A stretch of DNA of 52,636 nucleotides from a virus. The notes under the pieces were generated by a model. That model was not told the origin of the DNA. It ran no database searches and saw only the letters and a program-made list of their open reading frames with translations. The position numbers and the translations under genes are program-made. Positions 36,482 to 52,633 of the stretch are shown here, one piece after another. Each line of letters begins with the position of its first letter. Position 1 is the first letter of the stretch. Location of the stretch: positions 1 to 52,636 of IMG/VR virus record IMGVR_UViG_3300008219_003648; one strand, given 5' to 3'.

Positions 36482-36482
36482 T

Positions 36483-37169
36483 ATGAATCACAGTAAACAT
36501 CCAGCAATACAAAAGTCTATCGATGAGGCCCAAGGTACTATACCGGACAACTTTAATGGACAGTTATTTCAAGATGTGTTTGTGAATGAAGTATTGGATA
36601 TTGACAATGGTTTTTTTGTGGATATAGGGGCTGGCACAGATGGTGTTAGAAATATGCCTATGAGTTTCTTCAGTAATACATATAACCTTGAAAGACGAAG
36701 AAACTGGACGGGTATTGCTATAGATTATGATAAAGAATACATAGATACGGCCCAATCTCATCGCCGTTGTCAGTGTGTGTGTGCTGATTTAATGGCAACC
36801 AATATAAATGATATATTAAAAGAATCCAACTGTCCTTCTGATGTAAACTATTTATCATTTGATGTGGACGAGGCCCAACCAAAGGTTCTTAGCGAACTCG
36901 ATCTTTCAAAATACAGATTCCAAATAATTACATATGAACATAATTTGTACCAAGGCTGCGACAAAGATCAAAAAATATCGAGAAACAAATTCAAAGAAGC
37001 AGGATACGAAATCTTGTGCGGAAACGTGATACTACACGATGTCGGTGTCGTAGAAGACTGGTACGTACACTCAGAATTTTTTGATCAATACGCACACTTT
37101 CAGTACCACGACATGAATTGTTTAACTATCGTAAACAATATAATTAGAAACAAACGCAAGCCCAAATGA
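36483..37169 (+). CDS. FkbM-type methyltransferase
   Basis: A 228-residue SAM-dependent methyltransferase of the FkbM type, which O-methylates sugars or polyketides. Visible motifs: FNGQLFQDVFVNEVLDIDNG, then the SAM loop FFVDIGAGTDGVRN (motif I), TGIAIDYDKEY (acidic residue that holds the SAM ribose), VNYLSFDVDEAQPKVLSEL and a terminal core. It lies next to GT genes, so sugar methylation is the most likely role. AAGAAGG before the ATG is adequate as ribosome binding site. Confidence 0.8.
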   Translation: MNHSKHPAIQKSIDEAQGTIPDNFNGQLFQDVFVNEVLDIDNGFFVDIGAGTDGVRNMPMSFFSNTYNLERRRNWTGIAIDYDKEYIDTAQSHRRCQCVCADLMATNINDILKESNCPSDVNYLSFDVDEAQPKVLSELDLSKYRFQIITYEHNLYQGCDKDQKISRNKFKEAGYEILCGNVILHDVGVVEDWYVHSEFFDQYAHFQYHDMNCLTIVNNIIRNKRKPK

Positions 37170-37188
37170 AGCAAGAAAGAGAAGTTCG

Positions 37189-38274
37189 ATGAAAGTACTT
37201 TACATAGGACATTATAAAGATGGTACCGGATGGGCCAATGCTGCCATTAATAATATACTGGCGCTCGATTCTGTAGGTGTTGAAGTAGTGCCGCGTGCTA
37301 TTACATTTGAAACCGAGCCAAAATCATATCCTAACAGAATCCAAGAACTAGAACAAGCTTCCAGTGAAGGGTGTGATATTTGTATACAACATACATTACC
37401 TCACCTATATTCTTATAATTCCAATTTTAAAAACATAGGATTTATTGCCAGCGAGACTAACCATTTCAAAGACAGCTCATGGCAGCATTATGCTAACCTA
37501 ATGGATGAAATATGGGTGCCCAGTATGCATACTAGGGTTGCATGTCGTATGAGTAATATAAAGGTTCCGGTCAATATTGCTCCTCATTCTTTGGATACTT
37601 CATCCTATAGTAAAATGTTAGAGGGAAATAAAATTCAGGAACTGGTTCACACATTCAACTTTGCTTTTGTTGGAGAGTTTATAGAAAGAAAAAATGTACA
37701 AGCATTGATACGCGCATTTCACACAGAATTTGGAGTGTCCGAACCTGTGAATCTATTTATTAAAACATCCCAACAATCCTTAGATTATGTGCAAAACTAT
37801 TGTAAGCAAATCAAGAATGGGTTAAAGCTACGAAAAAGATATAAAGAAGAAATTGTTGTATGTGGATATCTTAGTAAAGAAGATTATGTGTCAGTGTTGT
37901 CTCAGTGTCATTCTTTTGTAATGCCCAGTCGAGGAGAGGCGTTTTGTATTCCGGCTCTTGAAGCTATGGCGCTTGGTATACCAGTAATCTATACTAAAAA
38001 AACGGGGATGGACGACTTTTGCTTAGGAACGGCTGTGAAATCTATACAAGTTCCGTGTGTGGGTGCCATATCTACGCTTCCTAATCTATGTACTGCAAAC
38101 AATAAGTGGGCAGAAATAAATGTCGAAGAGTTGGCCATTGCCATGCGTAAAGTGTATATGCAATGGCAAACTGAAGCATCGCAAAAACAACGTAAGGCAT
38201 CTATTAAAAAAGCTAAATCATATAGCCACCAAAAGGTTGGAGCACAGTTAAAGGAATTATTGAATGACAGCTAA
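37189..38274 (+). CDS. GT4-type glycosyltransferase
   Basis: A 361-residue GT-B enzyme. VLYIGHYKDGTGWANAAINN forms the N-terminal acceptor loop, EIWVPSMHTRVACR and VNIAPHSLDTSSYS follow, AFVGEFIERKNVQALIRAFH carries the donor-phosphate Arg/Lys, and MPSRGEAFCIPALEAMALGIP is the E-x7-E nucleotide-sugar motif with RGEAF. Length is normal for GT4. It overlaps the next GT by 11 nt. Part of the same operon as the FkbM-like gene. Confidence 0.9.
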   Translation: MKVLYIGHYKDGTGWANAAINNILALDSVGVEVVPRAITFETEPKSYPNRIQELEQASSEGCDICIQHTLPHLYSYNSNFKNIGFIASETNHFKDSSWQHYANLMDEIWVPSMHTRVACRMSNIKVPVNIAPHSLDTSSYSKMLEGNKIQELVHTFNFAFVGEFIERKNVQALIRAFHTEFGVSEPVNLFIKTSQQSLDYVQNYCKQIKNGLKLRKRYKEEIVVCGYLSKEDYVSVLSQCHSFVMPSRGEAFCIPALEAMALGIPVIYTKKTGMDDFCLGTAVKSIQVPCVGAISTLPNLCTANNKWAEINVEELAIAMRKVYMQWQTEASQKQRKASIKKAKSYSHQKVGAQLKELLNDS

Positions 38275-39283
38275 CGCTACCCCAATGGCCGTTAGGTCTA
38301 TATTACGGCGTCAACAGCGACAAGAGCCGCTGAATATATTGACATTTTGTACCCATGAAAGATATGAACAAAAACTGTGTCAAACGGGTCACAATTTTTA
38401 TTCAATCAACTATGGTAAAGAATGGGATACTGATTATGGTGACATTCCTGAAAATTATTACGTTATAAACGAAGTACCGTCTTACATAAATTTTGATTTG
38501 ATTTTATGTCATACCGCTTGTGATAGACTTCGTGTATCACATAATATTAAAAATGATTTTAATATACCCATACTGCTCCATATGCACGTACTACCAGACA
38601 TAAGAAACGATGTGGCTACACAGGTAAATCAGTTTCAAATCGCTACTGCTAATGTAGACCAAAAGAGTTTTATTTCTGAATTTAGTATGAAGGCATGGGG
38701 ATCTACTGTACAGGATGCGACATTTATTGAACATGGCGTAGAGACAGACTTTTGGTCTGTTGACACAGAAATAGAACGTGATAATGCTTGTTTGTCGGTT
38801 GTAAATGATTGGCCTAATAGAGATTGGTGTTGTGGTTGGGAACTATGGAAAAATACAATAGGAATTAATACTCCAGAAGCGCTTCCAGTCAAGGTGTTTG
38901 GGAAAAGTCCCGGTTTTTCAGAACCCGCTCAATCAATAGAACATCTACGGCAAATTTACCAAACGTCTAAGATATTTTATAATACCTCATTACACTCCCC
39001 AGTGCCAACATCATTGCTGGAAGCCATGGCGTGCGGATGTGCAGTAGTATCAACAGCTACATGCATGATTCCCGAAATTATAGAACATGAGAAAAATGGT
39101 TTTATATCTAACGATCCCAATGAGCTACGGCAATTTCTAGAAGTGTTACTTAATGATGATAAATTGGCGCAACAGCTTGGCCAAGAAGCTAGAAATACCA
39201 TGGTAGAAAAATACAATCTACAAAGGCATATAGATAACTGGAACAAAATATTTTATGCAACAATTGCAGCCTATAAGGACTAA
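38264..39283 (+). CDS. GT4-like glycosyltransferase
   Basis: A 339-residue GT-B type protein. N-terminal domain with PLNILTFCTHERYEQKLCQT and PILLHMHVLP; donor domain with VFGKSPGFSEPAQSIEHLRQ and YNTSLHSPVPTSLLEAMACG, where Pro-Thr-x2-Leu-Glu replaces the usual Glu of the first half of E-x7-E, then CAVVSTATCMIPEII. The end is the usual helical cap. Overlaps neighbours by 11 nt and is separated from the next gene by 3 nt. Function inferred from fold only. Confidence 0.78.
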   Translation: MTANATPMAVRSILRRQQRQEPLNILTFCTHERYEQKLCQTGHNFYSINYGKEWDTDYGDIPENYYVINEVPSYINFDLILCHTACDRLRVSHNIKNDFNIPILLHMHVLPDIRNDVATQVNQFQIATANVDQKSFISEFSMKAWGSTVQDATFIEHGVETDFWSVDTEIERDNACLSVVNDWPNRDWCCGWELWKNTIGINTPEALPVKVFGKSPGFSEPAQSIEHLRQIYQTSKIFYNTSLHSPVPTSLLEAMACGCAVVSTATCMIPEIIEHEKNGFISNDPNELRQFLEVLLNDDKLAQQLGQEARNTMVEKYNLQRHIDNWNKIFYATIAAYKD

Positions 39284-39286
39284 CAA

Positions 39287-39709
39287 ATGAAAATATATCT
39301 ATCACCACACCAACCTAATGAAACATATAACGCATGGATTTCCAATATAGCGACTCTAGATGGACAGGTGCTAGATAGCGAAGCTACGCAAATTATTGCA
39401 TATCAATTTTTATCTATGTTCACTTATGATGAAGTTAGCCAAATTATACCGAAGATCGCTCAAAAAATGAGACTTAATTGTGAATTAACTATAGTTGAAC
39501 CTGATTTTAATTTACTAGCACAACAATATATTAGAGATGATTTCTCAATAGGTAATATCAATCAGATTATGTTTAATGGAAATTATATCAAGAGCGCCTT
39601 GAATCTAGAAGAAGTTGTTAGTTATCTTCCATCAAATTTAACTATTCATGAAAAGTCATTTAATGCATCATTGGCTCAAATGATAATCAAATGTAGGAGA
39701 GAGTCATGA
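39287..39709 (+). CDS. Methyltransferase-like half domain
   Basis: A 140-residue protein. Segments ATQIIAYQFLSMFTYDEVSQ and RLNCELTIVEPDFNLLAQQY read like the second half of a class I SAM methyltransferase (the region after motif IV, where the catalytic helix and the EhDL-like PD motif occur), and NQIMFNGNYIKSALNLEEVV like its acceptor cap. The SAM-binding N-terminal half (motif I glycine loop) is missing. It could be a relic or a non-catalytic partner of another methyltransferase. Stop overlaps the following ATG by 4 nt. Confidence 0.5.
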   Translation: MKIYLSPHQPNETYNAWISNIATLDGQVLDSEATQIIAYQFLSMFTYDEVSQIIPKIAQKMRLNCELTIVEPDFNLLAQQYIRDDFSIGNINQIMFNGNYIKSALNLEEVVSYLPSNLTIHEKSFNASLAQMIIKCRRES

Positions 39710-40482
39710 TAACTACATCGTGTAAAGGGTGTGTCTTTGCGACCTATACTGATAAACAACAATCAGGATGCCAATTGGGGCGCGCAGACAAGCTTACATA
39801 TGAAACTAATGAAGATGGCCATTATATGGTGCAACGATTTTGTAACACATATCGCCCCGAAGAATGGCTTAAAGAATTGTCACTAGATGAATATGAAAAC
39901 CGTCACGATGTGGTTCTTAATGAAACTGTTCCGCGTGTAGGGTTTTTTATAATATTTGACCCCACACACAATATAGAAGACCTAAGAATTACATTGGAAG
40001 ATATACAACGTCAAACCATACCCCCTCGATATGTGGCTGTTATAAATAGTAAAGTAGAATATAATATAGAAATTCAAGCAATCTTTAAAGAGATGTTTGA
40101 TTTTGATGTTACCATGCACCATATAGTACAAATGTCTTCTTTTCCAGAAGACCACAATCTTTTAGTAGATGAAGCATTTACGCATGCAAAAAATGGATGG
40201 TTATATATAACATATTCTCATGAGAAAATAGATAGAGATTTAGTTTCTAAAATGCATGCTCGCATTAACATCAACATGAAACCATTGGTTGTTGTTAAGC
40301 CGTACGAAGGTATTAAAGGGCTCCTATTTCAAACATCACTTTTTAAATTACTTAATGGCAATAAAACAAAAATGTATCACGATCAATCGGTTGACACTAG
40401 ATCATTTCTAGATAAAGTAGACGAAATGCCTAAAGATAATTCTAATACAGTTATTACGTGGAGTAAATTTAATGAAGCCTAA
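39706..40482 (+). CDS. Cys-motif GT-A-like glycosyltransferase
   Basis: A 258-residue protein in two parts. The first 50 residues carry a Cys-rich module: SCKGCVFATYTDKQQSGCQL with C-x2-C and a third Cys, then QRFCNTYRPEEW with a fourth, probably a metal site. The rest looks like a GT2 fold: RVGFFIIFDPTHNIEDLRIT, LEDIQRQTIPPRYVAVINSK, and GWLYITYSHEKIDRDLV where a DxD would be expected. The catalytic acid is therefore not clear. Cys modules like this occur on GTs of large marine phages as far as I recall. Overlaps neighbours at both ends. Confidence 0.6.
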   Translation: MITTSCKGCVFATYTDKQQSGCQLGRADKLTYETNEDGHYMVQRFCNTYRPEEWLKELSLDEYENRHDVVLNETVPRVGFFIIFDPTHNIEDLRITLEDIQRQTIPPRYVAVINSKVEYNIEIQAIFKEMFDFDVTMHHIVQMSSFPEDHNLLVDEAFTHAKNGWLYITYSHEKIDRDLVSKMHARININMKPLVVVKPYEGIKGLLFQTSLFKLLNGNKTKMYHDQSVDTRSFLDKVDEMPKDNSNTVITWSKFNEA

Positions 40483-41281
40483 TGTTGCGATAATTATAAG
40501 TAACTATAACTATAGTGCTTATGTTCTTGAAGCTATTCATAGTGCGCTAAATCAAACTTACGATGGCAATTTACAGGTGTATATGTTAGATGATGGCTCA
40601 TCTGATGATTCATGGGCTAAGATATCATCTATTACATGGGAAAATGAAGGGGATGCTGAGTGGGGGGCTGAGGAAATAGACACTAAATATTACAAGGGTG
40701 TAATCGAGAGACGACAAAAAAACAATTTATATGCCTATCGAATTGATAATTCAGGAGCAAGTACGGCTCGCAATGTAGCTATATGGGAGGCGTGGCAATG
40801 GGCTGATATATTTGGTATATTGGATGCAGATGATATGTATGAGCCAAACAAAGTGAAAATTCTAGTAGACAAACTGTTAGAGCATCCTGAAATAGGGGTG
40901 GCTTATGCTGACTATAGAATTCACAGACAGATGGATCATCATAATTACACTAAATATGAAATCAAACACCCGTATAGTAGAGAGTTGCTGCTACAAAAAT
41001 GTATCGTACATATTGGCTCTTTAATCAAAAAAGAATATCTTCAACAAGTCATATTACCGCTTAATAGCGAAATATTTGACAGTAGGTTACACGGCCCCGG
41101 TAGTCAATCCTTTATTGGGTGTACAGAGGATTATGATCTGTGGCTTCGGTTATCTAAGGTCTGCATGATGACTCATGTGCCAGAACCTTTATCTATTGTG
41201 CGCGAAACTGGCCAAAATCAATCATTGAAAATGACTACCGAAACCTTCCAGAGAAATGCGCAAATTTTACAAACGAGATAA
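40472..41281 (+). CDS. GT2 family glycosyltransferase
   Basis: A 269-residue inverting GT-A enzyme. VAIIISNYNYSAYVLEAIHS, ALNQTYDGNLQVYMLDDGSS (first Asp), NSGASTARNVAIWE, GILDADDMYEPNKV (DxD metal site), and CTEDYDLWLRLSKV (the acidic catalytic ED motif) occur in order, so it looks complete and active. No membrane segment. Its last base is adjacent to the next start (41281/41282). Acceptor unknown; probable sugar chain elongation. Confidence 0.92.
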   Translation: MKPNVAIIISNYNYSAYVLEAIHSALNQTYDGNLQVYMLDDGSSDDSWAKISSITWENEGDAEWGAEEIDTKYYKGVIERRQKNNLYAYRIDNSGASTARNVAIWEAWQWADIFGILDADDMYEPNKVKILVDKLLEHPEIGVAYADYRIHRQMDHHNYTKYEIKHPYSRELLLQKCIVHIGSLIKKEYLQQVILPLNSEIFDSRLHGPGSQSFIGCTEDYDLWLRLSKVCMMTHVPEPLSIVRETGQNQSLKMTTETFQRNAQILQTR

Positions 41282-42007
41282 ATGACTAGATTCACAAAAA
41301 AAATTACCGAACCTCCAGTTACTACTTTGCATAATAGTATAGCTATTATCATTTTGTCGGCTGGAGTTGGCAATAGAATTAAATCATACGAACCTAGAAG
41401 CTTACTAAAAATTGGACAAACCACTTTAATTGATCACCAGCTTTCTGTTTTAAATAACTCATTTCATTTTCCAGAAATAATCGGAGTGTTTGGTTATTTA
41501 GTCGAAAAAGTAGTTAAAAAGGTTCGAGGTAAAATACGCATAATAGAAAATCAAATATACCAAGAAACTAATACAGCAGAAAGCCTCAGACTAGCATTTA
41601 ACAGCACCACCAAAAATGATCTATTATTTTTTCATGGTGACCTATATTTTAACCTTGGTACATTACAAGGATTAGATTATAGTAAATCATTTTTATTGAT
41701 TGACAATAAACAGCAATTGCACGATAAAGAAGTGGGAGTCACGGTATGTGATAACAAAGCTACTATATTGTCATACGGCCTTCCTACTAAGTGGTGCCAA
41801 ATAGCATATATTACTGGTAAAGAATTTAAAATATTGAAACATATATTTCAAAAATTTAATAACAATCAAAAAAAAATGCTCGTTTTTGAAATTATAAACC
41901 AAATGATTGCAATGGGTGCGGTTTTTCATTGCTACGAACCTAAAAAGATGTCTATTGTGGAAATAGACTGCATAAAGGATATCAATTATGAAAATTTTAA
42001 TAAGTAG
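41282..42007 (+). CDS. Sugar-phosphate-type nucleotidyltransferase
   Basis: A 241-residue NTP transferase of the LicC/GlmU-like fold. IAIIILSAGVGNRIKSYEPR contains the LSAGxGxR nucleotide loop, LLKIGQTTLIDHQL the Lys-containing second part, and LLFFHGDLYF the acidic metal site. Total length is that of a bare nucleotidyltransferase without a hexapeptide domain. Product would be an NDP-activated sugar or CDP-choline-like unit. Its 3' end overlaps the next gene by 20 nt. Exact substrate not readable. Confidence 0.78.
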   Translation: MTRFTKKITEPPVTTLHNSIAIIILSAGVGNRIKSYEPRSLLKIGQTTLIDHQLSVLNNSFHFPEIIGVFGYLVEKVVKKVRGKIRIIENQIYQETNTAESLRLAFNSTTKNDLLFFHGDLYFNLGTLQGLDYSKSFLLIDNKQQLHDKEVGVTVCDNKATILSYGLPTKWCQIAYITGKEFKILKHIFQKFNNNQKKMLVFEIINQMIAMGAVFHCYEPKKMSIVEIDCIKDINYENFNK

Positions 42008-43028
42008 TGACGGAAAGCATGCGCACTACTATCAAAGAATGGCGTGGGCCACAGCGCTTACCAAGGCGGATTTTCAGGTAAGTATGTGGGATTGCAAAAG
42101 CGTTCCAGCTTTTGATGTATTTGATGCATTTGAGCCCGATATATTTTTAGGACAATCATATAATCTCGATACATCGTTATTAAAATGTATATACGAACGA
42201 CCTCATATAAAAGTAGGCTTACGAGTTGGTGACTGGGGTGATCATGAAGACATGGTAGATAAAACAAAATATAACATATTGTATTGCTCTCAAAAGGAAA
42301 AAGATGTTCTCAAAAAGCTCAAAGAAGAAACCGGTAAACCAGACTTTGTACATATTCATTATGACGAAAATGCTGTTAAGATCACCCATAACCATTTTGA
42401 ATCAATAGGAATAAAACCAATCTCATTAATGATGTGTGCTGACACCACAGCTTACAGTAGTGCTCAATATGACCCTAAGCTAGAATGTGATATAGGTTTT
42501 GTGGGAGGTTATTGGCCCTATAAAGGACTTGTTATAGACCAATATCTAACACCACTTTTAGATCCCCCTAATTATAAAGTTAAGATTTTTGGTAATCAAG
42601 TGTGGCCTGTTAATCAATACTGTGGCCTCTTATCAGACAACGATGTCAAAAACCTATTTGTATCTGCTAGAATATGTCCCAATCTCAGTGAGCCTCATGC
42701 CCAAGAATTTGGTATTGATGTAAATGAACGAATTTTTAAAATATTATATGCGGGAGGTTTTTGTATTTCAGATAAGGTGGATTCTTATAAAATGTTTGGA
42801 GATGGTTTGGTAATTGTTAACAGTCCAGAAGATTTCAGAGATAAAATAGATCACTATTTAGCCAATCCATCTGAACGATACAAAATTGCAGAAGTTGGCC
42901 AAAAACATGTTACAGAAAACCACACAGGATTTCACAGGAGCGCTCAAATCATGAATGCGTTTGATTTGACTAATTTATCAGAACGCATAATGAATCAATA
43001 TGAGGAAACAGTAAATGTCACAATCTAA
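41988..43028 (+). CDS. CgeB-like glycosyltransferase (GT-B)
   Basis: A 346-residue protein resembling the spore/phage CgeB-like glycosyltransferases. MKILISSDGKHAHYYQRMAW and FEPDIFLGQSYNL make the first domain; PKLECDIGFVGGYWPYKGLV, KIFGNQVWPVNQYCGLLSDN and FGIDVNERIFKILYAGGFCI the donor domain, the latter with a conserved Asn-Glu-Arg and GG turn. YKMFGDGLVIVNSPEDFRDK forms the tail region. It overlaps the nucleotidyltransferase by 20 nt and the epimerase by 14 nt. Confidence 0.78.
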   Translation: MKILISSDGKHAHYYQRMAWATALTKADFQVSMWDCKSVPAFDVFDAFEPDIFLGQSYNLDTSLLKCIYERPHIKVGLRVGDWGDHEDMVDKTKYNILYCSQKEKDVLKKLKEETGKPDFVHIHYDENAVKITHNHFESIGIKPISLMMCADTTAYSSAQYDPKLECDIGFVGGYWPYKGLVIDQYLTPLLDPPNYKVKIFGNQVWPVNQYCGLLSDNDVKNLFVSARICPNLSEPHAQEFGIDVNERIFKILYAGGFCISDKVDSYKMFGDGLVIVNSPEDFRDKIDHYLANPSERYKIAEVGQKHVTENHTGFHRSAQIMNAFDLTNLSERIMNQYEETVNVTI

Positions 43029-43977
43029 GGTTTTAGTTACAGGTGGAAAAGGTTTTTTAGGAAAATCTTTATGCGCGCTATTGAGACAAAATCAATCCTA
43101 TAATGTAATAGCCTTATCCGGTAAATCTCAGTGGGATCTAACTAACCAACGTTATGTCGATTATATGTTACAAGAGTTTACTCCTGATGTAGTGATACAC
43201 TTAGCCGCCAGAGTAGGAGGTATTGGAGCCAACAAAAAAAATCCCGGACTCTTTATGTATGAAAATTTGGCTATGGGTATGAATCTTATTGAGTCTTGTA
43301 GAAAATATGGCAAACTAAAAAAGTTTATTATGGTTGGTACCGTTTGCGCATATCCTAAGTTTACTGAGGTGCCTTTTAAGGAAACAGATATATGGAATGG
43401 TTATCCAGAAGAAACAAATGCTCCCTATGGAATAGCTAAAAAGGCTCTTATGGAGCTATTAATAGCCTATAACAAACAATACGATTTTCAGTGTACTAAC
43501 CTTATACCAGTAAATATGTATGGACCCAACGATAATTTTGATCCCAATATAAGTCATGTAATTCCAGCACTGATTTTAAAGTTTGCTAAAGCCATACAAA
43601 ACCACCATAAGCCAGTTGAAATATGGGGTACTGGAAAAGCTAGTCGTGAATTTTTGTATGTAGATGATTGTGCTCATGCCATATCTCAGGCAATTGAACT
43701 ACACACAACACCACAACCAATTAATGTGGGTACAGGCGATGAGGTTACCATTAGAACATTAGCACACTATATTAGTAGAATAATGGAATATAAAGGTGAT
43801 ATATATTTTAACTCTCAGCACCCAGACGGGCAGCCTCGAAGATGTTTAGATACGTCGGTTGCCAAAGAGACACTTAAATTTACAGCTTCTACAGGTTTAG
43901 AAACAGGATTACAAAACACCGTAACATGGTTCAATAGAAACAAGGATAGATTCGTTGATTACTTCGATCATATTTAG
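43015..43977 (+). CDS. GDP-L-fucose synthase-like NAD(P)-dependent epimerase
   Basis: A 320-residue short-chain dehydrogenase-type epimerase/reductase. VTGGKGFLGKS is the Rossmann GxxGxxG (residues 8-18), IHLAARVGGIGANKKNPGLF the fucose-synthase signature, GTVCAYPKFTEVPF contains the position of the catalytic Ser (here T109), and NAPYGIAKKALME the Y138-x3-K142 pair. EFLYVDDCAHAI is the C-terminal substrate part. It would make GDP-L-fucose or a similar 6-deoxysugar; no GDP-mannose dehydratase is seen in the window, so the precursor would come from elsewhere. Confidence 0.85.
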   Translation: MSQSKVLVTGGKGFLGKSLCALLRQNQSYNVIALSGKSQWDLTNQRYVDYMLQEFTPDVVIHLAARVGGIGANKKNPGLFMYENLAMGMNLIESCRKYGKLKKFIMVGTVCAYPKFTEVPFKETDIWNGYPEETNAPYGIAKKALMELLIAYNKQYDFQCTNLIPVNMYGPNDNFDPNISHVIPALILKFAKAIQNHHKPVEIWGTGKASREFLYVDDCAHAISQAIELHTTPQPINVGTGDEVTIRTLAHYISRIMEYKGDIYFNSQHPDGQPRRCLDTSVAKETLKFTASTGLETGLQNTVTWFNRNKDRFVDYFDHI

Positions 43978-44800
43978 TAAAGACCGTCCAGCTCAGCTGG
44001 ATTTATGTCTCAATAGTATCAAAAAGAATTTTGCAGATTCTAATAGAAATATTGTGTTATACAACAACACTAAAGATTTTATAGAAGCCCATAAGATATT
44101 ACAAAGTGAACATAAGGATGTAGACTTTTGGCCACAAGGGTTATCTTTATTTAAAGATCTGTATGCCACTATTGCAAGCTCTGATAATGATTATATTTGC
44201 TTTTTTACTGACGATGATATAGTATACCAACCAGTAAAAACAATTGACTATAATTCAATTCTACAAAATGACCACATCGCTTGCCTATCTCTAAGAATGG
44301 GTTTGAATATCTCTGAAAGATCTCACGATGGTGTTGTGGGACAAGACACACCAGCAGCATATCATGAATATGATGATATTATCTTATGGTCAAAAACAGC
44401 CAACACATACGGGTCCTATTGGTCATATTCTTTATCAGTAGATGGTCATATATTTAGAAAAAATGAAATATTAGACATGATAGATGAATTATGTTGCTTA
44501 GCAGATCGCTATCATTGGGATCAAACACCTAACGCACTAGAAGGGGCGCTTCAAAGGTTTTGGACAATCTCCCCGAACACGATGGCATCATTTAAGAATA
44601 GTGTGGTAGTCAATAGCCCGAATAACCGTGTACAGGAAAGTCATCTCAATAGATCAGGTGATAAGTATAGCGCCGATAGCAATTTCCTGCTGGGGAAGTA
44701 TTTGGCAGGACAAAGGATTAAGTTGGAATATTTAAATTTTGATAATATAAAATGTCCACATACAGAAATTGATCTCATGTTAGGTTTGTATGACAAATAA
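43955..44800 (+). CDS. GT2-like glycosyltransferase, TTG start
   Basis: A 281-residue GT-A-like protein. The N-terminus ITSIIFSKDRPAQLDLCLNS is the first strand of a GT2-like fold, and DNDYICFFTDDDIVYQPVKT contains a DDD metal site. HRDF/ED-like residues at the C-terminal side are not obvious. The start is TTG at 43955: AAGGA at 43942-43946 is 8 nt upstream, and no in-frame ATG would keep the first strand. This makes a 23-nt overlap with the epimerase gene. Donor unknown. Confidence 0.7.
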   Translation: MITSIIFSKDRPAQLDLCLNSIKKNFADSNRNIVLYNNTKDFIEAHKILQSEHKDVDFWPQGLSLFKDLYATIASSDNDYICFFTDDDIVYQPVKTIDYNSILQNDHIACLSLRMGLNISERSHDGVVGQDTPAAYHEYDDIILWSKTANTYGSYWSYSLSVDGHIFRKNEILDMIDELCCLADRYHWDQTPNALEGALQRFWTISPNTMASFKNSVVVNSPNNRVQESHLNRSGDKYSADSNFLLGKYLAGQRIKLEYLNFDNIKCPHTEIDLMLGLYDK

Positions 44801-45773
44801 TATTTGGCATTTCAGCACACTTAGTGACCATAATTATATTATTAATGGTTTGTGTCTATATGACTCATTAGTAGAAAAGTCCTCGCAAGACTTTATGCTG
44901 CATTATTTATGTATGGATCAATATACTTATGATACGTTAAACTCATTACAGCTGTCACACTTAAAAACATATACACTAGAAGATATTGCCACTGATCCCG
45001 AATTTGTAACCCTTAAAGAAAATAATGCTTGCCGCCCTATAGATAGGCATGCTGGTGTAGAAGGATCGGATCAATCAGATTTTCACTTTGCGCTTGCGTC
45101 CTTTTTTTCTTATTTCTTATTAAATCAACAAAATCTTCCCCATATATTATATATAGATTCAGATATAATATTCTATCATGACCCTAAAAGTATATTTACC
45201 TCAGTACAAAATAAGAGTATTGGGCTCATTGCTCACCGACATATGAAGATGGACAAAGCAAACCGAAATCCGGGATATTATAATGTAGGTGTTATTTATT
45301 TTCAAAACAATGAAGTGGGTAAAAACTGTCTAAAATTTTGGAGAGACTGCTGTATATATCCTAATAATCAATACTCTCAGATTTTTGGTGCTTGTGGTGA
45401 TCAAAAATACCTAGAGCTGTTTGAGGATTTTTTTGCTAGTGATCAAATCCACATCATGGATTTTGATATAGGGCACGGTGCCCCGTGGAATTTTACCATG
45501 TTTGAATTTCTAGATAATCACAGAATTGTGTGGCATGATCCTGAAGGTAATGTATTATTATGTGGAGAAAAACGAACTCAAGACTTGATTTTTAGTCACT
45601 TTAGTCACTTTGTACCCGATTACGATAATATGAAATTTCGATTCGATAGAGCTGGCGAATGGGGTCCACAGCTACCTCATCATCCGGGTGTCATGGATAT
45701 TTATATAAAATATTTTCAAGCACTCCTCCACACAAGAAAAAAATACTCTCTTACAAAAGGATTTTCTCTATGA
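44790..45773 (+). CDS. GT8/nucleotide-diphospho-sugar transferase-like glycosyltransferase
   Basis: A 327-residue GT-A enzyme. The metal motif DxD is in LPHILYIDSDIIFYHDP, followed by GYYNVGVIYFQNNEVG, FGACGDQKYLELFEDFFA and FDIGHGAPWNF, a layout shared by GT8 and related retaining glycosyltransferases. The final part has the tandem FSHFSHF from a 9-nt direct repeat (45592-45609). The next gene starts on its stop codon (ATGA at 45770). Acceptor unknown. Confidence 0.78.
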   Translation: MTNNIWHFSTLSDHNYIINGLCLYDSLVEKSSQDFMLHYLCMDQYTYDTLNSLQLSHLKTYTLEDIATDPEFVTLKENNACRPIDRHAGVEGSDQSDFHFALASFFSYFLLNQQNLPHILYIDSDIIFYHDPKSIFTSVQNKSIGLIAHRHMKMDKANRNPGYYNVGVIYFQNNEVGKNCLKFWRDCCIYPNNQYSQIFGACGDQKYLELFEDFFASDQIHIMDFDIGHGAPWNFTMFEFLDNHRIVWHDPEGNVLLCGEKRTQDLIFSHFSHFVPDYDNMKFRFDRAGEWGPQLPHHPGVMDIYIKYFQALLHTRKKYSLTKGFSL

Positions 45774-46564
45774 GATATGAGGCTATAGGAAGCGTACAAT
45801 GGGAAGCTAAAGATCTAATTAATTCTCTAGAAGATTTTTTGCAAATATATGCATATCGCCCCATTCGTGATAATGAGGGAGGAATGACTTCTTCTCACAT
45901 GTTTGCTACATGGTTTTTATGTAAACAACTTAATCCCCAATATATTATTGAAAGTGGTGTATGGAAAGGGCAAAGTTCTTGGTTATTGGAAACGGCGTGC
46001 CCAGATGCAAAAATTATATCCATTGATCCAGATCTTCAAATTCGACAATATATATCACCTCGCATACAATATGCAGTTACAGATTTTAATAATACGAATT
46101 GGGATTCAATAAACAAGAATGAGACACTATGTTTTTTCGATGATCATTATGGAGTCGATAGAGTAAAGCAAGCTGCGCAACACGGCTTTAAGCACATCTT
46201 GTATGAAGATAATTATCACGATGGCAGAGGTAATAGTTATCATCCCTCCTATGGGCATATTGCTAACATGGAACCTTTAACCGAAGGTGAGCGATCATAT
46301 TCCCCCAAAGCATCGTTTTTACTAAATACTAAAGATGCACAATGGCTACAAGATAACATAGAAATATATTATGAATTTCCCCCCATATATTCATCTGTAG
46401 ATTCTGATCGTGGTTATGGGTGGGCCAAAATAAGCAGAGAACAATATTTAGATATTACACCCCCTCCTTTATTTAGTACATATCATCCCCGGTTCGACAT
46501 TTATTATAAAGAAGCGCCAGATTATACATGGATAACTTATATTAAGTTAAAGGAGACTCTATGA
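45770..46564 (+). CDS. Class I SAM-dependent methyltransferase-like protein
   Basis: A 264-residue protein. Motif I is YIIESGVWKGQSSWLLETAC, with the following acid in IISIDPDLQI, and FFDDHYGVDRVKQAAQHGFK as motif IV-like acidic segment. This resembles the CmcI/rhamnosyl O-methyltransferase-like group. ATG 45770 overlaps the upstream stop and has AAGG about 10 nt before it; a longer frame from 45659 would run into the previous gene and is not used. It would methylate a sugar in the same glycan. Confidence 0.7.
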   Translation: MRYEAIGSVQWEAKDLINSLEDFLQIYAYRPIRDNEGGMTSSHMFATWFLCKQLNPQYIIESGVWKGQSSWLLETACPDAKIISIDPDLQIRQYISPRIQYAVTDFNNTNWDSINKNETLCFFDDHYGVDRVKQAAQHGFKHILYEDNYHDGRGNSYHPSYGHIANMEPLTEGERSYSPKASFLLNTKDAQWLQDNIEIYYEFPPIYSSVDSDRGYGWAKISREQYLDITPPPLFSTYHPRFDIYYKEAPDYTWITYIKLKETL

Positions 46565-47382
46565 ATCTTCCCGTTATTTTTATGCATACTGGATATCAGG
46601 ATTACTTGGCACAAAGTATACAGCAATCTCAACTATGGGACAACAAGGTTATATTGCTGGGAGATGACTCGAATAAAAAGGCGCATGTAGAGCATCATTT
46701 TATGTCTGATTATATGGATGGTACACAAAAGTTTTCTGATAATTACCAACATATGACATCTGGAAATTTTGAATTTGAGCTTTTTTGTTACAACAGATGG
46801 TTAATATTGTCTAATTTTGCCGAACGGCACTCAATAGAAAAATTGGTATATCTTGATTCAGATGTGGCTACGTTTTGTAATTTTTCCGACAAAGAAAATC
46901 TATTAGACGAAAAAAATATTGCCAGAGTATGTATGATGGACAATCAAGCAAATTATAGATGGTGTGCAGCAGCTTGTATTTCTTACTGGAGTCTGAGGGG
47001 GCTCAATACCTTTAAACAATTTCTTTTAGAAGCATACACCAAACACGTCGACAGGCTACAAGAGAAATGGCAATATCATCAAGACCATGATAAAGCTGGA
47101 GGGGTTTGCGATATGACCGCAACTTATTTATTTGTGAAAGATAATGAACTAGAACCCCTGAATAAGGTATTAGAAGATGATAGCACATTTGACCAAAGTA
47201 TGATGAGCGCTGACAATTATTTTGATAATGAATATGCTATGGACCCTCGGGGATTTAAAAAGCTAACATTCAGAGGCAATATACCGTATGCGTATAATAC
47301 TATTTTAAACAAGGAAATCAAAATGAATGCTATTCACACAAATAACAAACAGCTTTTAACAGCCCTAATAGGGAGAAATTGA
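46561..47382 (+). CDS. GT-A type glycosyltransferase
   Basis: A 273-residue protein. The clearest motif is EKLVYLDSDVATFCNF with the DxD metal site, preceded by SGNFEFELFCYNRWLILSNF. AAACISYWSLRGLNTF and KAGGVCDMTATYLFVKDN form the later part, and the end (MNAIHTNNKQLL) has a His in the place of the usual metal-binding histidine. Family resembles bacterial/viral GT-A proteins of uncertain number. Coupled to the previous gene by ATGA. Confidence 0.7.
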   Translation: MNLPVIFMHTGYQDYLAQSIQQSQLWDNKVILLGDDSNKKAHVEHHFMSDYMDGTQKFSDNYQHMTSGNFEFELFCYNRWLILSNFAERHSIEKLVYLDSDVATFCNFSDKENLLDEKNIARVCMMDNQANYRWCAAACISYWSLRGLNTFKQFLLEAYTKHVDRLQEKWQYHQDHDKAGGVCDMTATYLFVKDNELEPLNKVLEDDSTFDQSMMSADNYFDNEYAMDPRGFKKLTFRGNIPYAYNTILNKEIKMNAIHTNNKQLLTALIGRN

Positions 47383-47383
47383 T

Positions 47384-48274
47384 ATGAAAATAGCATTTGG
47401 TATAATAGTTTTCAATGGTAATTATGTGCTTCAAGAAACCATTGACTCTGTGTACCCCTTTGCTCACCAAATTTTAATTGCGGAGGGACCAGTTAAATTT
47501 TGGCAAGAACAAGGTTACTCATCATCTAGTGATGGCACTAATGAAATCATAGACAGCATATACGATCCAGATAATAAAATTCAAGTTATACATAGTCAGT
47601 ACGACGAAAAGGATGATCAATGTAATGCCTATATGCAATTCCTTAAGGAAGATAATGATTATATTTGGAATCTAGATTGTGACGAGGTATTCAAGCCAAG
47701 CGACATGGATACAGTTATAGGTTTATTAGAGCAAGAACAATATACTTCTGTGGGCTTCAAGAGTCTTACTTTTTATGGGGGTTTTGATAGATATCTTAGT
47801 GGATTTGAAGAAAGGGCAGAATTTTTAAGGGTTAGAAAGATATATCCGGGATCTTACTGGTCTACACATAGACCTCCTACAATTGCTCACCGTGCGCCAG
47901 ACCCATTAACTGGAGAACCATATCCAGAAAAACATCTAGATTTTAATGATCTAGCCGATAACTATGGAATAAGAATGTACCATTATTCCTATGTATTTCC
48001 TGATCAGGTATTTCAAAAGATAAAATATTACAAACAAAAAGTAAGTAAGGATAATTGTATCGACAATTATTTTGAGGAAATTTATTTGCCATGGATGCTC
48101 ACAGATGATAAAATGTTAGTAGAACAAAAATATCAGGGGGTTCATGAATTCAAGCCAGAGTGTCGTGGTGAATGTTATACGGCTCAATTTGAAGGGACTC
48201 ATCCATTTATTATAAACCATAGCCTACAGATGTTTCAAAAAAAGATTAACTCTCAACTGGAAAAATACACATGA
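47384..48274 (+). CDS. GT2 family glycosyltransferase
   Basis: A 296-residue GT-A enzyme. MKIAFGIIVFNGNYVLQETI, then the nucleotide-binding region QILIAEGPVKFW, DNDYIWNLDCDEVFKPSDM with the metal DxD-type acid, and GFKSLTFYGGFDRYLSGFEE. HRAPDPLTGEPYPEKHLDFN and MYHYSYVFPDQVFQKIKYY follow, resembling the lgt-type GT2 group. Complete-looking. The stop overlaps the next methyltransferase gene by 4 nt. Confidence 0.82.
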   Translation: MKIAFGIIVFNGNYVLQETIDSVYPFAHQILIAEGPVKFWQEQGYSSSSDGTNEIIDSIYDPDNKIQVIHSQYDEKDDQCNAYMQFLKEDNDYIWNLDCDEVFKPSDMDTVIGLLEQEQYTSVGFKSLTFYGGFDRYLSGFEERAEFLRVRKIYPGSYWSTHRPPTIAHRAPDPLTGEPYPEKHLDFNDLADNYGIRMYHYSYVFPDQVFQKIKYYKQKVSKDNCIDNYFEEIYLPWMLTDDKMLVEQKYQGVHEFKPECRGECYTAQFEGTHPFIINHSLQMFQKKINSQLEKYT

Positions 48275-48867
48275 ATCAACACATAGACTCTTGGAAAAAT
48301 TCGTCTAGTGCTTTTGAACAGCAATTAGAGAGAAATATACAAGAGCTTAATGGCCAATTTCCACCACACTGGATTCATTTCGTTGAGCATGTTCAAAATA
48401 CCCCTATCAACAGAATTGTGGATGTGGGGTGTGGTGCTGGGGCTTATTGCCATATCTCAACACAAATGGGAATCGAATATATGGGATATGATTATTCCCA
48501 GCACGCAATAGATTTGGCAACCAAAACATGGGGAGGTAATTTTATATGTAAAAATTATAAAGAGCTGACACCTCAAGATATACAGACAGGAGATATCATC
48601 GTGGCTAATGCTCTTTGTGAAGTACTACCGGATGGAGATAAATGCTTACGTCATTTACTGCAAATTGGGGCTAATAACTTATTGATACAAAGGGTGAGGT
48701 CTACAAATACACCCAGCTTTTCTAAAGAATATGAAGCTTACGGAATAATGACCTATGAATTTTATCACAACGCAAAGCAATTATCCTTGGATATAAACAA
48801 CAGTGGCTACAAGGTTACCTATCATAGATTATATGATGATGTGTTTGATTTGGAGATTGCTAAGTGA
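48271..48867 (+). CDS. Class I SAM-dependent methyltransferase
   Basis: A 198-residue methyltransferase. RIVDVGCGAGAYCHISTQMG is motif I with the GxGxG loop, followed by YMGYDYSQHAIDLATKTW with the acidic ribose-binding residue, and GDIIVANALCEVLPDGDKCL as motif IV. All core elements are present in a compact single domain. It lies directly before the sialyltransferase gene with a 4-nt overlap. The substrate is probably a sugar; a small-molecule target cannot be excluded. Confidence 0.82.
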   Translation: MNQHIDSWKNSSSAFEQQLERNIQELNGQFPPHWIHFVEHVQNTPINRIVDVGCGAGAYCHISTQMGIEYMGYDYSQHAIDLATKTWGGNFICKNYKELTPQDIQTGDIIVANALCEVLPDGDKCLRHLLQIGANNLLIQRVRSTNTPSFSKEYEAYGIMTYEFYHNAKQLSLDINNSGYKVTYHRLYDDVFDLEIAK

Positions 48868-49472
48868 ATGAATTAAAATTGATCAGCCCACAACTTATGG
48901 TAAATTCAAATATTGCTCTTGTGGCTTCTAGCTCTAATTTACTTGAAAGGGAATATGGTAAAACTATAGATAGCTTTGACGAAGTAGTTAGATTTAACAG
49001 AGCCCCCACTAAGGGGTATGAAAAGTACGTGGGGTCTAAAACTACTATTCGTATAGCTAATAATCATGTATTTGGAAATGTTCTTCATAGCGGATGGGAC
49101 ACAGACGCTCAGCCTACCTTTTTTATTAAAGAACAAAAAAATATCAACATTGTTCACTTAGGGCCAGAAGCAGTTCATTGGGGAGACAGAAGCCAACATA
49201 TAGATCCGTCTTCTCGGGCATTTTTAGTTGACTGTAATGCCATCCAGCGAGATATATTTTCCTTAACCAACGAAAGGCCAAGTGCTGGCTTTGGGTTTTT
49301 ATTCATATGTCTTATCAGTGATTTACATCCACACATCTTTGGATATGGGTTTGGGGAAGAGGGGTGTCCCCATTATTACGAAAAAAATTCTATTAGTAGC
49401 CATCAATTTGTTAAAGAAAGAGAAGTAATGAAAATTTGGATACAGAAAGGATATGTAACTGCGCATCTATGA
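48864..49472 (+). CDS. Sialyltransferase-like protein (GT29 sialylmotifs)
   Basis: A 202-residue protein with the motifs of eukaryote-type GT29 sialyltransferases. Sialylmotif L covers residues 16-62: NIALVASSSNLLE, GKTIDSFDEVVRFNRAPTKG, YVGSKTTIR. Sialylmotif S is RPSAGFGFLFICLISDLHPH then IFGYGF (138-163), and the VS motif HYYE follows at H170-E173. It would transfer a CMP-activated sialic acid to an acceptor. No membrane anchor or stem, unlike animal enzymes. The next two genes encode CMP-sialate synthetase and sialate synthase, which strongly supports the assignment. Confidence 0.83.
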   Translation: MNELKLISPQLMVNSNIALVASSSNLLEREYGKTIDSFDEVVRFNRAPTKGYEKYVGSKTTIRIANNHVFGNVLHSGWDTDAQPTFFIKEQKNINIVHLGPEAVHWGDRSQHIDPSSRAFLVDCNAIQRDIFSLTNERPSAGFGFLFICLISDLHPHIFGYGFGEEGCPHYYEKNSISSHQFVKEREVMKIWIQKGYVTAHL

Positions 49473-50107
49473 TATACTATATAATACCAGCGAGAAAAGG
49501 ATCTAAAGGGCTCCCTTTTAAAAACAGAAAACTGTTTCATTTTACCGCTGACACTATACCTAGCAATTTAAGTAGTGCCACTATAGTATCTACTGATGAT
49601 GATTATATTTCTAATTTGGCTTCAGGGTATGGATTTAAGTCACACAACAGAAGCCCACATGTGTCTATGGATACTACAAACACACGAGAGCTTTTAAGAG
49701 AGGTAGCTCGTGATCAGAATATGCACACAGATGATGAAATTGTAATGATGTATCTTACATATCCCCAAAGAACATTTTCAGATGTAGAAAAAATATACCA
49801 ATTTTACAAAAACAATAATGGAAACACACTGTTGTGTAAACAAGAGGCCACCACTCATCCATATATGTGTTATTATGAACTATCGAACCATAAAGGAAAA
49901 AGAGTTATTGATCACGATTTATACCGAAGGCAGGATTATCCTGATTGTTTTTTTGTTAGTTACTTTGTGGTCATTCTAAAGGTTGAATATTTACAAGTGG
50001 TCAATAAAAATCTACATCATCCACAAACATTGTTTTATCAACTAGACTACAATAGTATTGATATTGACACAATACAAGATCTTGATAACTTTGCTAAAAG
50101 GGATTAA
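49469..50107 (+). CDS. neuA: CMP-sialic acid synthetase-like cytidylyltransferase
   Basis: A 212-residue nucleotidyltransferase that would activate a nonulosonic (sialic-like) acid with CTP. IIPARKGSKGLPFKNRKLF is the N-terminal CTP loop (AxRxGSKG), ATIVSTDDDYISNLASGYGF the following region, and VMMYLTYPQRTFSDVEKIYQ and IDIDTIQDLDNF the later ones. ATG 49469 overlaps the sialyltransferase stop; the longer frame from 49436 has no better site. The usual NeuA position of RRQDxP is present (YRRQDYPDCFF). Neu5Ac, legionaminate or pseudaminate could be the substrate. Confidence 0.85.
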   Translation: MIYYIIPARKGSKGLPFKNRKLFHFTADTIPSNLSSATIVSTDDDYISNLASGYGFKSHNRSPHVSMDTTNTRELLREVARDQNMHTDDEIVMMYLTYPQRTFSDVEKIYQFYKNNNGNTLLCKQEATTHPYMCYYELSNHKGKRVIDHDLYRRQDYPDCFFVSYFVVILKVEYLQVVNKNLHHPQTLFYQLDYNSIDIDTIQDLDNFAKRD

Positions 50108-50108
50108 T

Positions 50109-51581
50109 ATGTTTTATATACTCGAAATGGCTAATAATCATATGGGCAACGTAGCGCATGGAAAGTTGATTATAGATCAATTTGCTGATATATGTTCCGA
50201 GTATAATATTAATGCTTCGATTAAATTTCAATTTAGACAGCTAGATACCTTTATCCACAAGGATTTTATAGACTCAAATCTCAAATATGTAAAAAGGTTT
50301 AAAGAAACAAGGCTATCTAAAGAACAGTTTGGGGAACTAATACAATATACCCTGTCTAAGGGATTAAAAACTTGTTGCACCGCATTCGACAATGAGTCAA
50401 TAGCTTGGTTAAAGGAGTTAGATATATCTGTGATCAAAGTTGCAAGCTGTTCAGTAGATGATTGGCCGTTACTTAAACAAATTAGTGATATCAGTAAGAG
50501 GGTTATCATTTCAACAGCTGCTGCCGATATGGGCACTCTTCATAAAGTGTATGATTTATTCAAATCTAAATGTCGTGACTTTGCATTTATGCACTGCGTT
50601 GCAGACTATCCCACACCACATGATAGGTCAAATTTAGAAAGAATCAAAATACTACAGCAAGAATTTCCAGATATTGAGATAGGCTATTCTACACATGAGC
50701 CTCCTAATGCTAAGACTACAAGTATATATTCGATAGCCATGGGTTGTACTATTTTAGAAAAGCATATAGGCGTTCCAACAGACAATATAAGCCTCAATAC
50801 ATACTCATTGTCTCCCCTTCATTTTAAACTATTGCTTGACGAAATAGAATATTTTCAAAAATCTTATTCTGGACAATCGGAAATACAAAAGGAAGCCCTT
50901 AGGGCATTAAAAAGGGGGGTGTACTTTTCTAAAGATATGCTAAAAGGTGCCCAGATTTTAGAAGAAAATATTTATTTCTGTATGCCCGTACAGCAGCTAG
51001 AAAATGATTTTCATTTTGATGCCTCAGGTGTGGACGACATCATTGGAAAAATCATTAGACAAAACGTAACAAAAAATTCCACCGTCAAGCTGTCCGATAT
51101 ATCTAAGGACGCCGAAGAAGATTCTCTTGAATTAATAAGATCAAAAATTGCTACAATTCTACAAATGGCAAATATTCCATACGGCGACGAAGAGTTAGAG
51201 ATATCCTGTCATTTTGGATTGGATAATTTTGAACAAACAGGCTGTAGTATTATAAATAGGATTAATAGAGAGTATTGTAAAAAACTCATTATTGTTCTTC
51301 CCGGTCAATCCCACCCAACCCACAAACACATTCAAAAGGAAGAATGTTTTGAGCTTTTGTATGGAGACTGCGCAGTTCAACTAGGAGGTGAAACTATATC
51401 ATTACAAAAAGGTAAGCCCTTATTGGTCCCAAGGGGGATTGGTCATTCCTTCAAAAGTAATCATGGCTGTGTAGTAGAAGAGATTTCCACTACTCACATT
51501 AAGGGTGATTCTATATATGATGATCCCACCATCAATCAATTACCTTTAGATAAACGAAAGATATTTACGGTATTCAAATAA
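50109..51581 (+). CDS. neuB: Sialic acid synthase-like protein (NeuB domain, SAF, cupin fusion)
   Basis: A 490-residue three-part protein. Residues 1-250 are the NeuB barrel: ILEMANNHMGN, KFQFRQLDTF, TAFDNESIAWL, VIKVASCSVDDWPLL, IISTAAADMGTL, ADYPTP, IGYSTHEP and LEKHIG. It condenses phosphoenolpyruvate with an N-acyl hexosamine. Residues 265-330 are the SAF (antifreeze-like) domain, RALKRGVYFSKDMLKGA to VKLSDI. Residues 390-470 are a cupin with likely metal ligands H405, H407, E412 and H446 (HPTHKHIQKEECFELL, LVPRGIGHSF), an unusual addition. ATG 50109 is used. It shares a TAATG junction with the next gene. Which nonulosonic acid is made is not readable. Confidence 0.87.
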   Translation: MFYILEMANNHMGNVAHGKLIIDQFADICSEYNINASIKFQFRQLDTFIHKDFIDSNLKYVKRFKETRLSKEQFGELIQYTLSKGLKTCCTAFDNESIAWLKELDISVIKVASCSVDDWPLLKQISDISKRVIISTAAADMGTLHKVYDLFKSKCRDFAFMHCVADYPTPHDRSNLERIKILQQEFPDIEIGYSTHEPPNAKTTSIYSIAMGCTILEKHIGVPTDNISLNTYSLSPLHFKLLLDEIEYFQKSYSGQSEIQKEALRALKRGVYFSKDMLKGAQILEENIYFCMPVQQLENDFHFDASGVDDIIGKIIRQNVTKNSTVKLSDISKDAEEDSLELIRSKIATILQMANIPYGDEELEISCHFGLDNFEQTGCSIINRINREYCKKLIIVLPGQSHPTHKHIQKEECFELLYGDCAVQLGGETISLQKGKPLLVPRGIGHSFKSNHGCVVEEISTTHIKGDSIYDDPTINQLPLDKRKIFTVFK

Positions 51582-52633
51582 TGGCACATATATTTAAACA
51601 TCCATCAGACAACCAACACGGTATTGTAGTTATATCTCACCAAGAAGCCTATAGAGGTATAGATCAATACGGAGATATAATTGATCAAATCAAAAATAAA
51701 AGATATTTCATCGGAGTACATTATGGGGGTTTTTCTAATGGGGCACCTTATCCAGATTTCGCAGACTTCTTTATGGGAAGACGGTCTGTTACAGATATAT
51801 CTAACAGGTATCCTCACGCATTTGAAATACCAATAGTAAGCTCAAACTTTACTTCAACTGTATTTAAGAAGGACCCAGCAGTAAAAAAATACTGGGACAT
51901 TATTAACGTTTCAAGAGCGGGTAATGTAAAAAGGCTCGACATTTTTTTTGAGCAGATAAAGCACATATATAACCAAGGGCACCCATACAAGGTGCTCCTG
52001 ATTTGCCCCAAGAGGCATGAAGAGACCCCGCAAGATCATTTTATTAATATTGAAGATGTCTATTATAATATGTTTACAAAAGACGAAAGGCAGTTATTTA
52101 CATTAATGCGGTTGGACGAAAACCTTGAATTCAAGGGGCTAAGCAAAACACAGCTGTCTTATTTCTATCAAGCTTCTAAGGTGTCTACCTTGTTTTCCAT
52201 GTGTGAAGGGAGTCCCGGTGTTATTGGAGAGTCTTTACTGTGTCAAGTTCCTGTAGTGGTACATGGGTCACAAATGGGAAGCGGTAGGGATTTTTGCAAC
52301 GATCACAATTCAGTTTATTGGCATCAAGACCACTTAGCTCATCAGGCGCTCATTAATGCCGTTGAGAATTATGACAAATTTGTGTTCGATATGGGTGTTA
52401 TAAGTGATAACTATAGAGAAGATTATGGGCTTACAAAATTAAAGGATTATTTTTCCGCCCTGTATCAAAAACATGGGCAAACATTTGATGGAGAGCTAAT
52501 TAATACAGACGATCTTGTTAGTCGGCTTCCCTCTCATTATACAGATTTACCTTGGGTTGATACAAGATTATATAACGGGCACATGGTAACACGGGAACAG
52601 TTTGAAACATTTGCGCGAGAGGCAGTAGCATGA
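51581..52633 (+). CDS. GT-B type glycosyltransferase
   Basis: A 350-residue GT-B protein. EAYRGIDQYGDIIDQIKN and RYFIGVHYGGFSNGAPYPDF form the N-terminal domain, and STLFSMCEGSPGVIGESLLC followed by QVPVVVHGSQMGSGRDFC the donor domain with a Glu pair (CEG and GES). LTKLKDYFSALYQKHG lies near the C-terminal cap. It starts on the stop of the sialate synthase gene and its own stop overlaps the ATG of a further gene. Possible polymeriser or extender of the sialic-acid glycan. Confidence 0.75.
   Translation: MAHIFKHPSDNQHGIVVISHQEAYRGIDQYGDIIDQIKNKRYFIGVHYGGFSNGAPYPDFADFFMGRRSVTDISNRYPHAFEIPIVSSNFTSTVFKKDPAVKKYWDIINVSRAGNVKRLDIFFEQIKHIYNQGHPYKVLLICPKRHEETPQDHFINIEDVYYNMFTKDERQLFTLMRLDENLEFKGLSKTQLSYFYQASKVSTLFSMCEGSPGVIGESLLCQVPVVVHGSQMGSGRDFCNDHNSVYWHQDHLAHQALINAVENYDKFVFDMGVISDNYREDYGLTKLKDYFSALYQKHGQTFDGELINTDDLVSRLPSHYTDLPWVDTRLYNGHMVTREQFETFAREAVA

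Follow-up and report, generated by a model that had tools for sequence, protein, structure and literature searches.

What would a phage do with a run of genes for making, activating and transferring an acidic sugar, and which sugar would it be? The question is raised by IMG/VR virus record IMGVR_UViG_3300008219_003648, a linear double-stranded DNA phage contig of 52,636 bases, and so possibly a fragment, which was analysed at full length and is referred to here as the window. Its replication genes, namely those for a class II ribonucleotide reductase, a DnaB-like helicase, a DnaE-like polymerase, a UvsX-like recombinase and PhoH, are of phage type, and towards its right end three consecutive genes encode, in this order, a GT29 transferase, a cytidylyltransferase and a NeuB-type synthase (Table 1). 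The initial annotation read them as a sialic acid module. We find good support, from the domains and folds of the proteins, from the order of the genes and from their recurrence in other viruses, for a make-activate-transfer module for an ulosonic acid activated with cytidine monophosphate (CMP), and also find that the synthase, usually together with the cytidylyltransferase, is an exchangeable unit around which the GT29 gene and its island stay in place. The reading we favour, at a probability of about 0.65, is a phage cassette for a CMP-ulosonate and its transferase, in which the exchangeable synthase unit has an altered substrate and the acceptor is probably a virion protein.

The three genes are intact open reading frames (ORFs), packed as tightly as had been annotated, with Pfam scores far above cut-off. 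The GT29 gene overlaps the methyltransferase gene before it by 4 nucleotides and the cytidylyltransferase gene (ATG at 49469) by a further 4 (ATGA); a single nucleotide then separates the cytidylyltransferase stop from the NeuB start, which we place at the ATG at 50109 rather than at the mechanically listed upstream TTG, and the NeuB stop overlaps the next glycosyltransferase gene by 1 nucleotide. Translational coupling of the three genes is plausible. They belong to a glycan-synthesis island of about 17 kb, all on one strand, which begins at about 34.8 kb and runs to the end of the record. The initial annotation noted that the first step of sialic acid synthesis, uridine diphosphate N-acetylglucosamine (UDP-GlcNAc) 2-epimerase, is missing from the window, and indeed the NeuC family (PF02350) is unmatched in this 52.6-kb linear fragment.

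The synthase, a protein of 490 amino acids, consists of a NeuB barrel with an SAF-like region followed by a cupin. It matches Pfam NeuB (PF03102, E 1.4e-41) and a Cupin_2 domain that had gone unmentioned in the initial annotation. The closest solved structure to the NeuB domain is 3g8r (phmmer E 1e-71; VIA Z 37.2), a putative SpsE-like protein of Chromobacterium violaceum, whose solved chain (350 amino acids) has no match to the window cupin; N. meningitidis NeuB (1xuu) is found at VIA Z 30. Membership of the NeuB superfamily of phosphoenolpyruvate (PEP)-condensing ulosonate synthases is thus clear. That the enzyme might really belong with 3-deoxy-D-manno-oct-2-ulosonic acid (Kdo) synthesis, an outcome the initial annotation had named as contradicting it, was checked for the synthase, which both the tree and the folds place in the NeuB superfamily, apart from KdsA.

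Within that superfamily the substrate pocket stands out. We compared the active sites of 112 NeuB-cupin proteins (33 viral, 79 bacterial) using N. meningitidis NeuB numbering. The PEP and metal residues K129, S132, Y186, H215 and H236 are kept, and these, together with the barrel and the SAF-like region, are shared with N. meningitidis NeuB and C. jejuni PseI (8h2c); unlike those enzymes, the window synthase carries the extra cupin and has the residues that contact N-acetylmannosamine (ManNAc) replaced. E134 is exchanged for Ser in 110 of the 112 and for Ala or Tyr in the remaining two, and all 112 have Asn at D247 and Met, Ile, Phe or Trp at R314; the window synthase has Ser, Asn and Met at these positions, and 3g8r shares the Asn at Asp247. 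R314 of the meningococcal enzyme contacts ManNAc, probably placing its N-acetyl group, and the R314A mutant is inactive (PMC6795526). As a control, the viral NeuB of locus L015, encoded beside a NeuC gene, has the canonical residue set. NCBIfam returns only matches below cut-off, the synthase scoring 131 bits against 399.65 for N-acetylneuraminate synthase (TIGR03569) and 129 bits against 340.25 for the pseudaminic acid synthase PseI (TIGR03586). Judged by its residues, the protein belongs to a NeuB subfamily with replaced ManNAc contacts and is something other than a standard sialic acid synthase; the ulosonic acid that it makes probably lacks the N-acetyl group or differs in some other way.

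The cupin points in the same direction. Its matches are D-lyxose isomerases, those of B. subtilis (2y0o; phmmer E 5e-9, and by Foldseek 1.9 A over 164 columns) and of Thermofilum (7nzo; E 2e-7). Eight metal- or sugar-binding residues have been defined in the Thermofilum D-lyxose isomerase, TsLI (PMC8378251), seven of which (K62, H75, H77, K86, E88, H143 and E156) are conserved in the window clade. The manganese ligands H75, H77, E88 and H143 correspond to window residues H405, H407, E412 and H446, and the catalytic K86 and E156 to K410 and E458; these six do not vary within the viral window clade and vary little among bacterial members that retain His405. Fold and residues are thus held in common with both isomerases, from which the window cupin differs in its fusion to NeuB, a shorter metal loop and the site of TsLI D163, considered below. 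An aldose-ketose isomerase that depends on a metal is thus the probable role of the fused domain. With the ManNAc-contact residues, Arg314 among them, gone, with scores far below the NCBIfam cut-offs and with a sugar-isomerase-like cupin attached, the designation of the product as sialic acid is not sustained.

Gene neighbourhoods divide the NeuB-cupins into two types. Those with His405 stand beside a cytidylyltransferase gene in 47 of 79 loci (37 of 67 bacterial, 10 of 12 viral), and 33 of the 67 bacterial loci also hold Maf flagellin glycosyltransferases. The flagellin-glycosylation islands of Lachnospiraceae resemble the window in this pairing, but are bacterial, employ Maf (MptE-like) instead of GT29 and have flagellin as acceptor. 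Maf is a CMP-ulosonate transferase, and that of C. botulinum accepts both N-acetylneuraminic acid (Neu5Ac) and Kdo (PMC11339370). The His405 type would accordingly use its cupin as an isomerase and start from a sugar other than ManNAc to make an ulosonic acid that can be activated with CMP. The fusion points to an uncharacterised branch of ulosonic acid synthesis, present also in gut Lachnospiraceae. In the second type, found in viruses and bacteria (L093-L116), the first metal His is replaced by Gln405, and the gene lies with sugar-modifying genes and, in 31 of 33 loci, a thiamine pyrophosphate (TPP) enzyme, with a cytidylyltransferase in none of the 33; this subfamily may build a different, possibly branched, sugar.

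The cytidylyltransferase (CYTIDYLYLTRANSFERASE) matches Pfam CTP_transf_3 (PF02348, E 8.4e-8) and aligns over its full length with the CMP-Neu5Ac synthetases 6ifd and 1eyr by phmmer. In N. meningitidis numbering it keeps R12, K21, R165, Q166, D209 and D211, among them the residues for cytidine triphosphate (CTP) and magnesium (R12, K21, D209 and D211, the roles of the last two being taken from PMC2901514), and has Tyr and Met at the Neu5Ac-linked positions Q104 and K142. Mutation of either residue greatly lowers the activity of the meningococcal enzyme, the Q104 mutations chiefly affecting Neu5Ac binding, while K142 is only semiconserved across the family (PMC2901514). The window protein is accordingly described here as a predicted CMP-ulosonate synthetase.

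For the transferase, motifs, fold and Pfam score (PF00777, E 1.5e-18, 67.7 bits against a cut-off of 23) all place it in family GT29. All four sialylmotifs are present, namely L (R43, N45, G57), S (G142), III (HYYE; H170-Y171) and VS (HxxxxE; H180, E185), and their key residues are invariant or almost so in an alignment of 33 phage and other viral homologues. An AlphaFold2 model (pLDDT 92.4) retrieves human ST8SiaIII (Foldseek E 2e-10), then mammalian ST3Gal1 and ST6GalNAc2, and then C. jejuni CstI and CstII. The protein thus shares its motifs and its GT-A-variant fold with the known GT29 sialyltransferases of CAZy (ST3Gal1, ST8SiaIII), and differs from them in being phage-encoded, in having just 202 residues and in adjoining a donor-synthesis pair. 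Bacterial GT29 enzymes are known from marine genera and have no membrane anchor (PMC5811610). Family membership does not fix the donor sugar, since a plant GT29, RCKT1, has been proposed to transfer Kdo from CMP-Kdo (PMC11288761) and KdsA accompanies GT29 in nine viral loci; the donor of the window enzyme may be other than CMP-Neu5Ac. Unanchored GT29 enzymes of about 200 residues would have practical value for glycoengineering.

How common is such a module? The initial annotation called it uncommon, which holds for the phages in GenBank, where relatives of GT29, NeuB and the cytidylyltransferase occur in 1, 3 and 2 of 50,697 records, respectively, but not for uncultivated viruses. Searching viral contigs with the single GT29 sequence gave no match and an alignment query was needed; with this, 98 GT29 stretches were confirmed in IMG/VR, which together with loci reached through NeuB yielded 72 non-redundant GT29 loci, of which 43 also hold a cytidylyltransferase gene and 28 a NeuB gene close by. 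BFVD matches annotated as GT29 come from uncultured Caudovirales and from eukaryotic viruses, and neither the GT29 nor the cytidylyltransferase protein is covered by a PHROGs family. In a 484-kb uncultured phage (LR756508.1; L002, 298000-346000), NeuB, a 43%-identical cytidylyltransferase and GT29 genes lie within about 20 kb, alongside GDP-fucose-type genes and with at least five diverged GT29 copies; compared with the window, its NeuB is short and without cupin, and its genes are unannotated and scattered in a larger island. Of 39 related viral records, 2 carry NeuC, and a few viruses therefore probably encode the whole Neu5Ac pathway; the two contigs (L015, 5136-8579; L024, 4336-8621) hold apparent complete Neu5Ac pathways with GT29. 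Among bacteria, GT29 was not found in eight genomes behind NeuB-cupin loci and, in a sample of 398 genomes from the phylum of the L118 genome, occurs in just 8, a scarcity that leaves the evidence short of a direct host origin. Neither NeuB/NeuA/GT29 modules in phages nor fusions of NeuB to a cupin were described in the literature searched (subscription papers and preprints lay outside the search). Phage-encoded synthesis and transfer of ulosonic acids is thus absent from that literature, yet the module recurs in many uncultivated viruses.

Comparison of these loci shows what is constant and what changes. Among the 72, the synthase is a NeuB-cupin in 5, a short NeuB in 23 and Kdo-8-phosphate synthase (KdsA, called by Pfam and NCBIfam) in 9, and NeuB and KdsA never occur together, either in these loci (28 and 9, respectively) or in 16 whole records. 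Eight of the loci (L009, L010, L012, L016, L017, L019, L020 and L022) combine GT29 and KdsA with a cytidylyltransferase and an aldolase of the DapA family, and so look like Kdo-type cassettes to which an aldolase has been added. The window island between 40472 and 52633 is syntenic with L005/L006/L008, which carry a short NeuB, and with L009/L010, which carry KdsA. Between the window and L006/L008 the run of genes from GT8 through GT4 shows 55-71% identity, compared with 26-29% for NeuB and 33-44% for the cytidylyltransferase; GT29 is 40-59% identical across the syntenic islands, and the following GT4 71% (L006, L008). The sharpest case is the pair L027 and L028, whose flanking genes share 67-87% identity; at the DNA level, identity of 56-85% continues up to the GT29 stop, is lost over the cytidylyltransferase and NeuB, and is back at the next gene, so that the swap follows the gene boundaries exactly. 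To account for the five NeuB-cupin rows, the GT29 tree requires five separate changes, at least four of them forced by well-supported branches, and on the NeuB tree the same five proteins fall in a single supported clade with one bacterial member. That one transferase has had its donor cassette replaced again and again suggests that viruses are selected for a varied terminal acidic sugar, much as is seen with bacterial capsule types.

The route that we infer would begin with the NeuB-cupin condensing PEP with an aldose to give a nonulosonic or related ulosonic acid, the aldose, probably other than ManNAc, being supplied or selected by the fused cupin as an isomerase. The cytidylyltransferase would then activate the acid with CTP, and GT29 would move it onto a glycan built in the cytoplasm by the neighbouring glycosyltransferases, most likely on a virion protein; in related viruses, short-NeuB or KdsA versions swapped into the same place would change the acidic sugar displayed. 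Cytoplasmic glycosylation, most likely of virion proteins, fits best, as the island encodes no multi-pass membrane protein and 16 viral records of up to 548 kb, this one included, yielded no Wzx-type flippase, which makes it likelier than modification of a host polysaccharide. A bolder and more tentative proposal, to which we give somewhat less than even odds, is that phages hold a modular display of acidic sugars, in which GT29 and its island are combined with an exchangeable NeuB-isomerase fusion, an SAF-less NeuB or KdsA with a DapA-like aldolase, so that the charged sugar of the particle could be switched like a serotype, and in which the fusion converts a neutral sugar in its free form into an ulosonic acid not yet described, with no need of UDP-GlcNAc epimerase. 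If true, this would be a viral analogue of serotype switching.

Several observations weigh against the favoured reading. The catalytic D163 of TsLI is not conserved, an aligned Lys465 taking its place and an invariant Asp467 following two residues further on, and for this reason the cupin is filed as isomerase-like, outside membership of the D-lyxose isomerases. Biochemistry for these proteins or for the NeuB-cupin subfamily is absent from the literature searched, and no virion-protein target was identified in the island. Within the flanks fetched, 35 of the 72 GT29 loci have neither NeuB nor KdsA. Finally, the cytidylyltransferases of the window and L008 are 44% identical over their full length, so exchange there may involve the synthase alone, and those of L092 and L028 are 49% identical despite differing NeuB proteins; as the cytidylyltransferase is less diverged than the synthase in such pairs, the exchanged unit is not always the pair.

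The alternatives bear on different parts of this reading. A true pathway for Neu5Ac (or for legionaminate or pseudaminate), with ManNAc or another amino-sugar precursor drawn from the host and with sialylation of virion or host glycans, would suit the company of NeuB, NeuA-like and GT29 genes, the equivalent place held by short-NeuB cassettes in syntenic islands, and the NeuC gene next to NeuB in L015 and L024, by which full viral Neu5Ac pathways probably exist; for the window we consider it unlikely, given that ManNAc contacts are replaced throughout the NeuB-cupin family, the equivalog cut-offs are missed by a wide distance, residues important for Neu5Ac in the meningococcal synthetase are exchanged and NeuC was not found in this record. 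Somewhat less unlikely, though still doubtful, is a cupin of merely structural or regulatory function, the NeuB-cupin then making an ordinary nonulosonic acid with a drifted substrate pocket; the loss of D163 would agree with this, as would the sister Gln405 subfamily with its lost metal ligand and other gene context, but the constancy of all four metal ligands and of the catalytic Lys and Glu in the viral window clade, and their near-constancy in bacterial His405 members, speaks against it.

The remaining alternatives concern the acceptor and the exchange itself. Ulosonic acids are common in bacterial lipopolysaccharides (LPS) and capsules, and the island holds many glycosyltransferases, so that the module might alter the host surface against superinfection instead of the virion; with neither a flippase nor a multi-pass membrane protein, export would need host machinery, and we regard this too as rather improbable. 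It is very improbable that faulty metagenome assembly or the misalignment of paralogues merely mimics an exchange of cassettes: all contigs are metagenomic and most are fragments, but the junctions fall on gene boundaries with both flanks matching over several kilobases, the well-supported GT29 branches force at least four independent changes, and the L005/L006/L007 arrangement is seen in three assemblies.

Table 1. Coordinates, in positions of the window, of the island, the module and its neighbours.
Feature	Position	Strand	Basis
Glycan-synthesis island containing the module: GT4, GT2 and GT8 glycosyltransferases, methyltransferases, sugar nucleotidyltransferase, GDP-fucose-synthase-like short-chain dehydrogenase/reductase	34829..52633	+	Pfam
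S-adenosylmethionine-dependent methyltransferase, directly upstream of GT29	48271..48867	+	Pfam Methyltransf_31/11
GT29 transferase, 202 amino acids	48864..49472	+	Pfam PF00777
Predicted CMP-ulosonate synthetase (cytidylyltransferase), 212 amino acids	49469..50107	+	Pfam PF02348, phmmer
NeuB-type PEP-condensing TIM-barrel domain and SAF-like region, residues 1-332	50109..51104	+	Pfam PF03102
C-terminal cupin like D-lyxose/D-mannose isomerase, residues 333-490	51105..51581	+	phmmer, Foldseek
GT4-type glycosyltransferase 3' of NeuB, bracketing the exchanged pair	51581..52633	+	Pfam

Elsewhere in the window, the left end (1-5123) encodes a protein of the acyl-CoA-dehydrogenase family adjoining a glycosyltransferase-like protein and a radical SAM/SPASM protein. 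Sugar nitrososynthases are members of the acyl-CoA-dehydrogenase superfamily, and the glycan island may have a second part to which these genes belong. The DnaE-like DNA polymerase is divided between two ORFs (30454-32061 and 32942-34513) with a DnaQ-like exonuclease gene between them (32296-32979). Just 3' of the class II ribonucleotide reductase gene, at 14930-15859, lies a gene for a protein of the ornithine cyclodeaminase/mu-crystallin family (E 2e-77), which is unusual for a phage.

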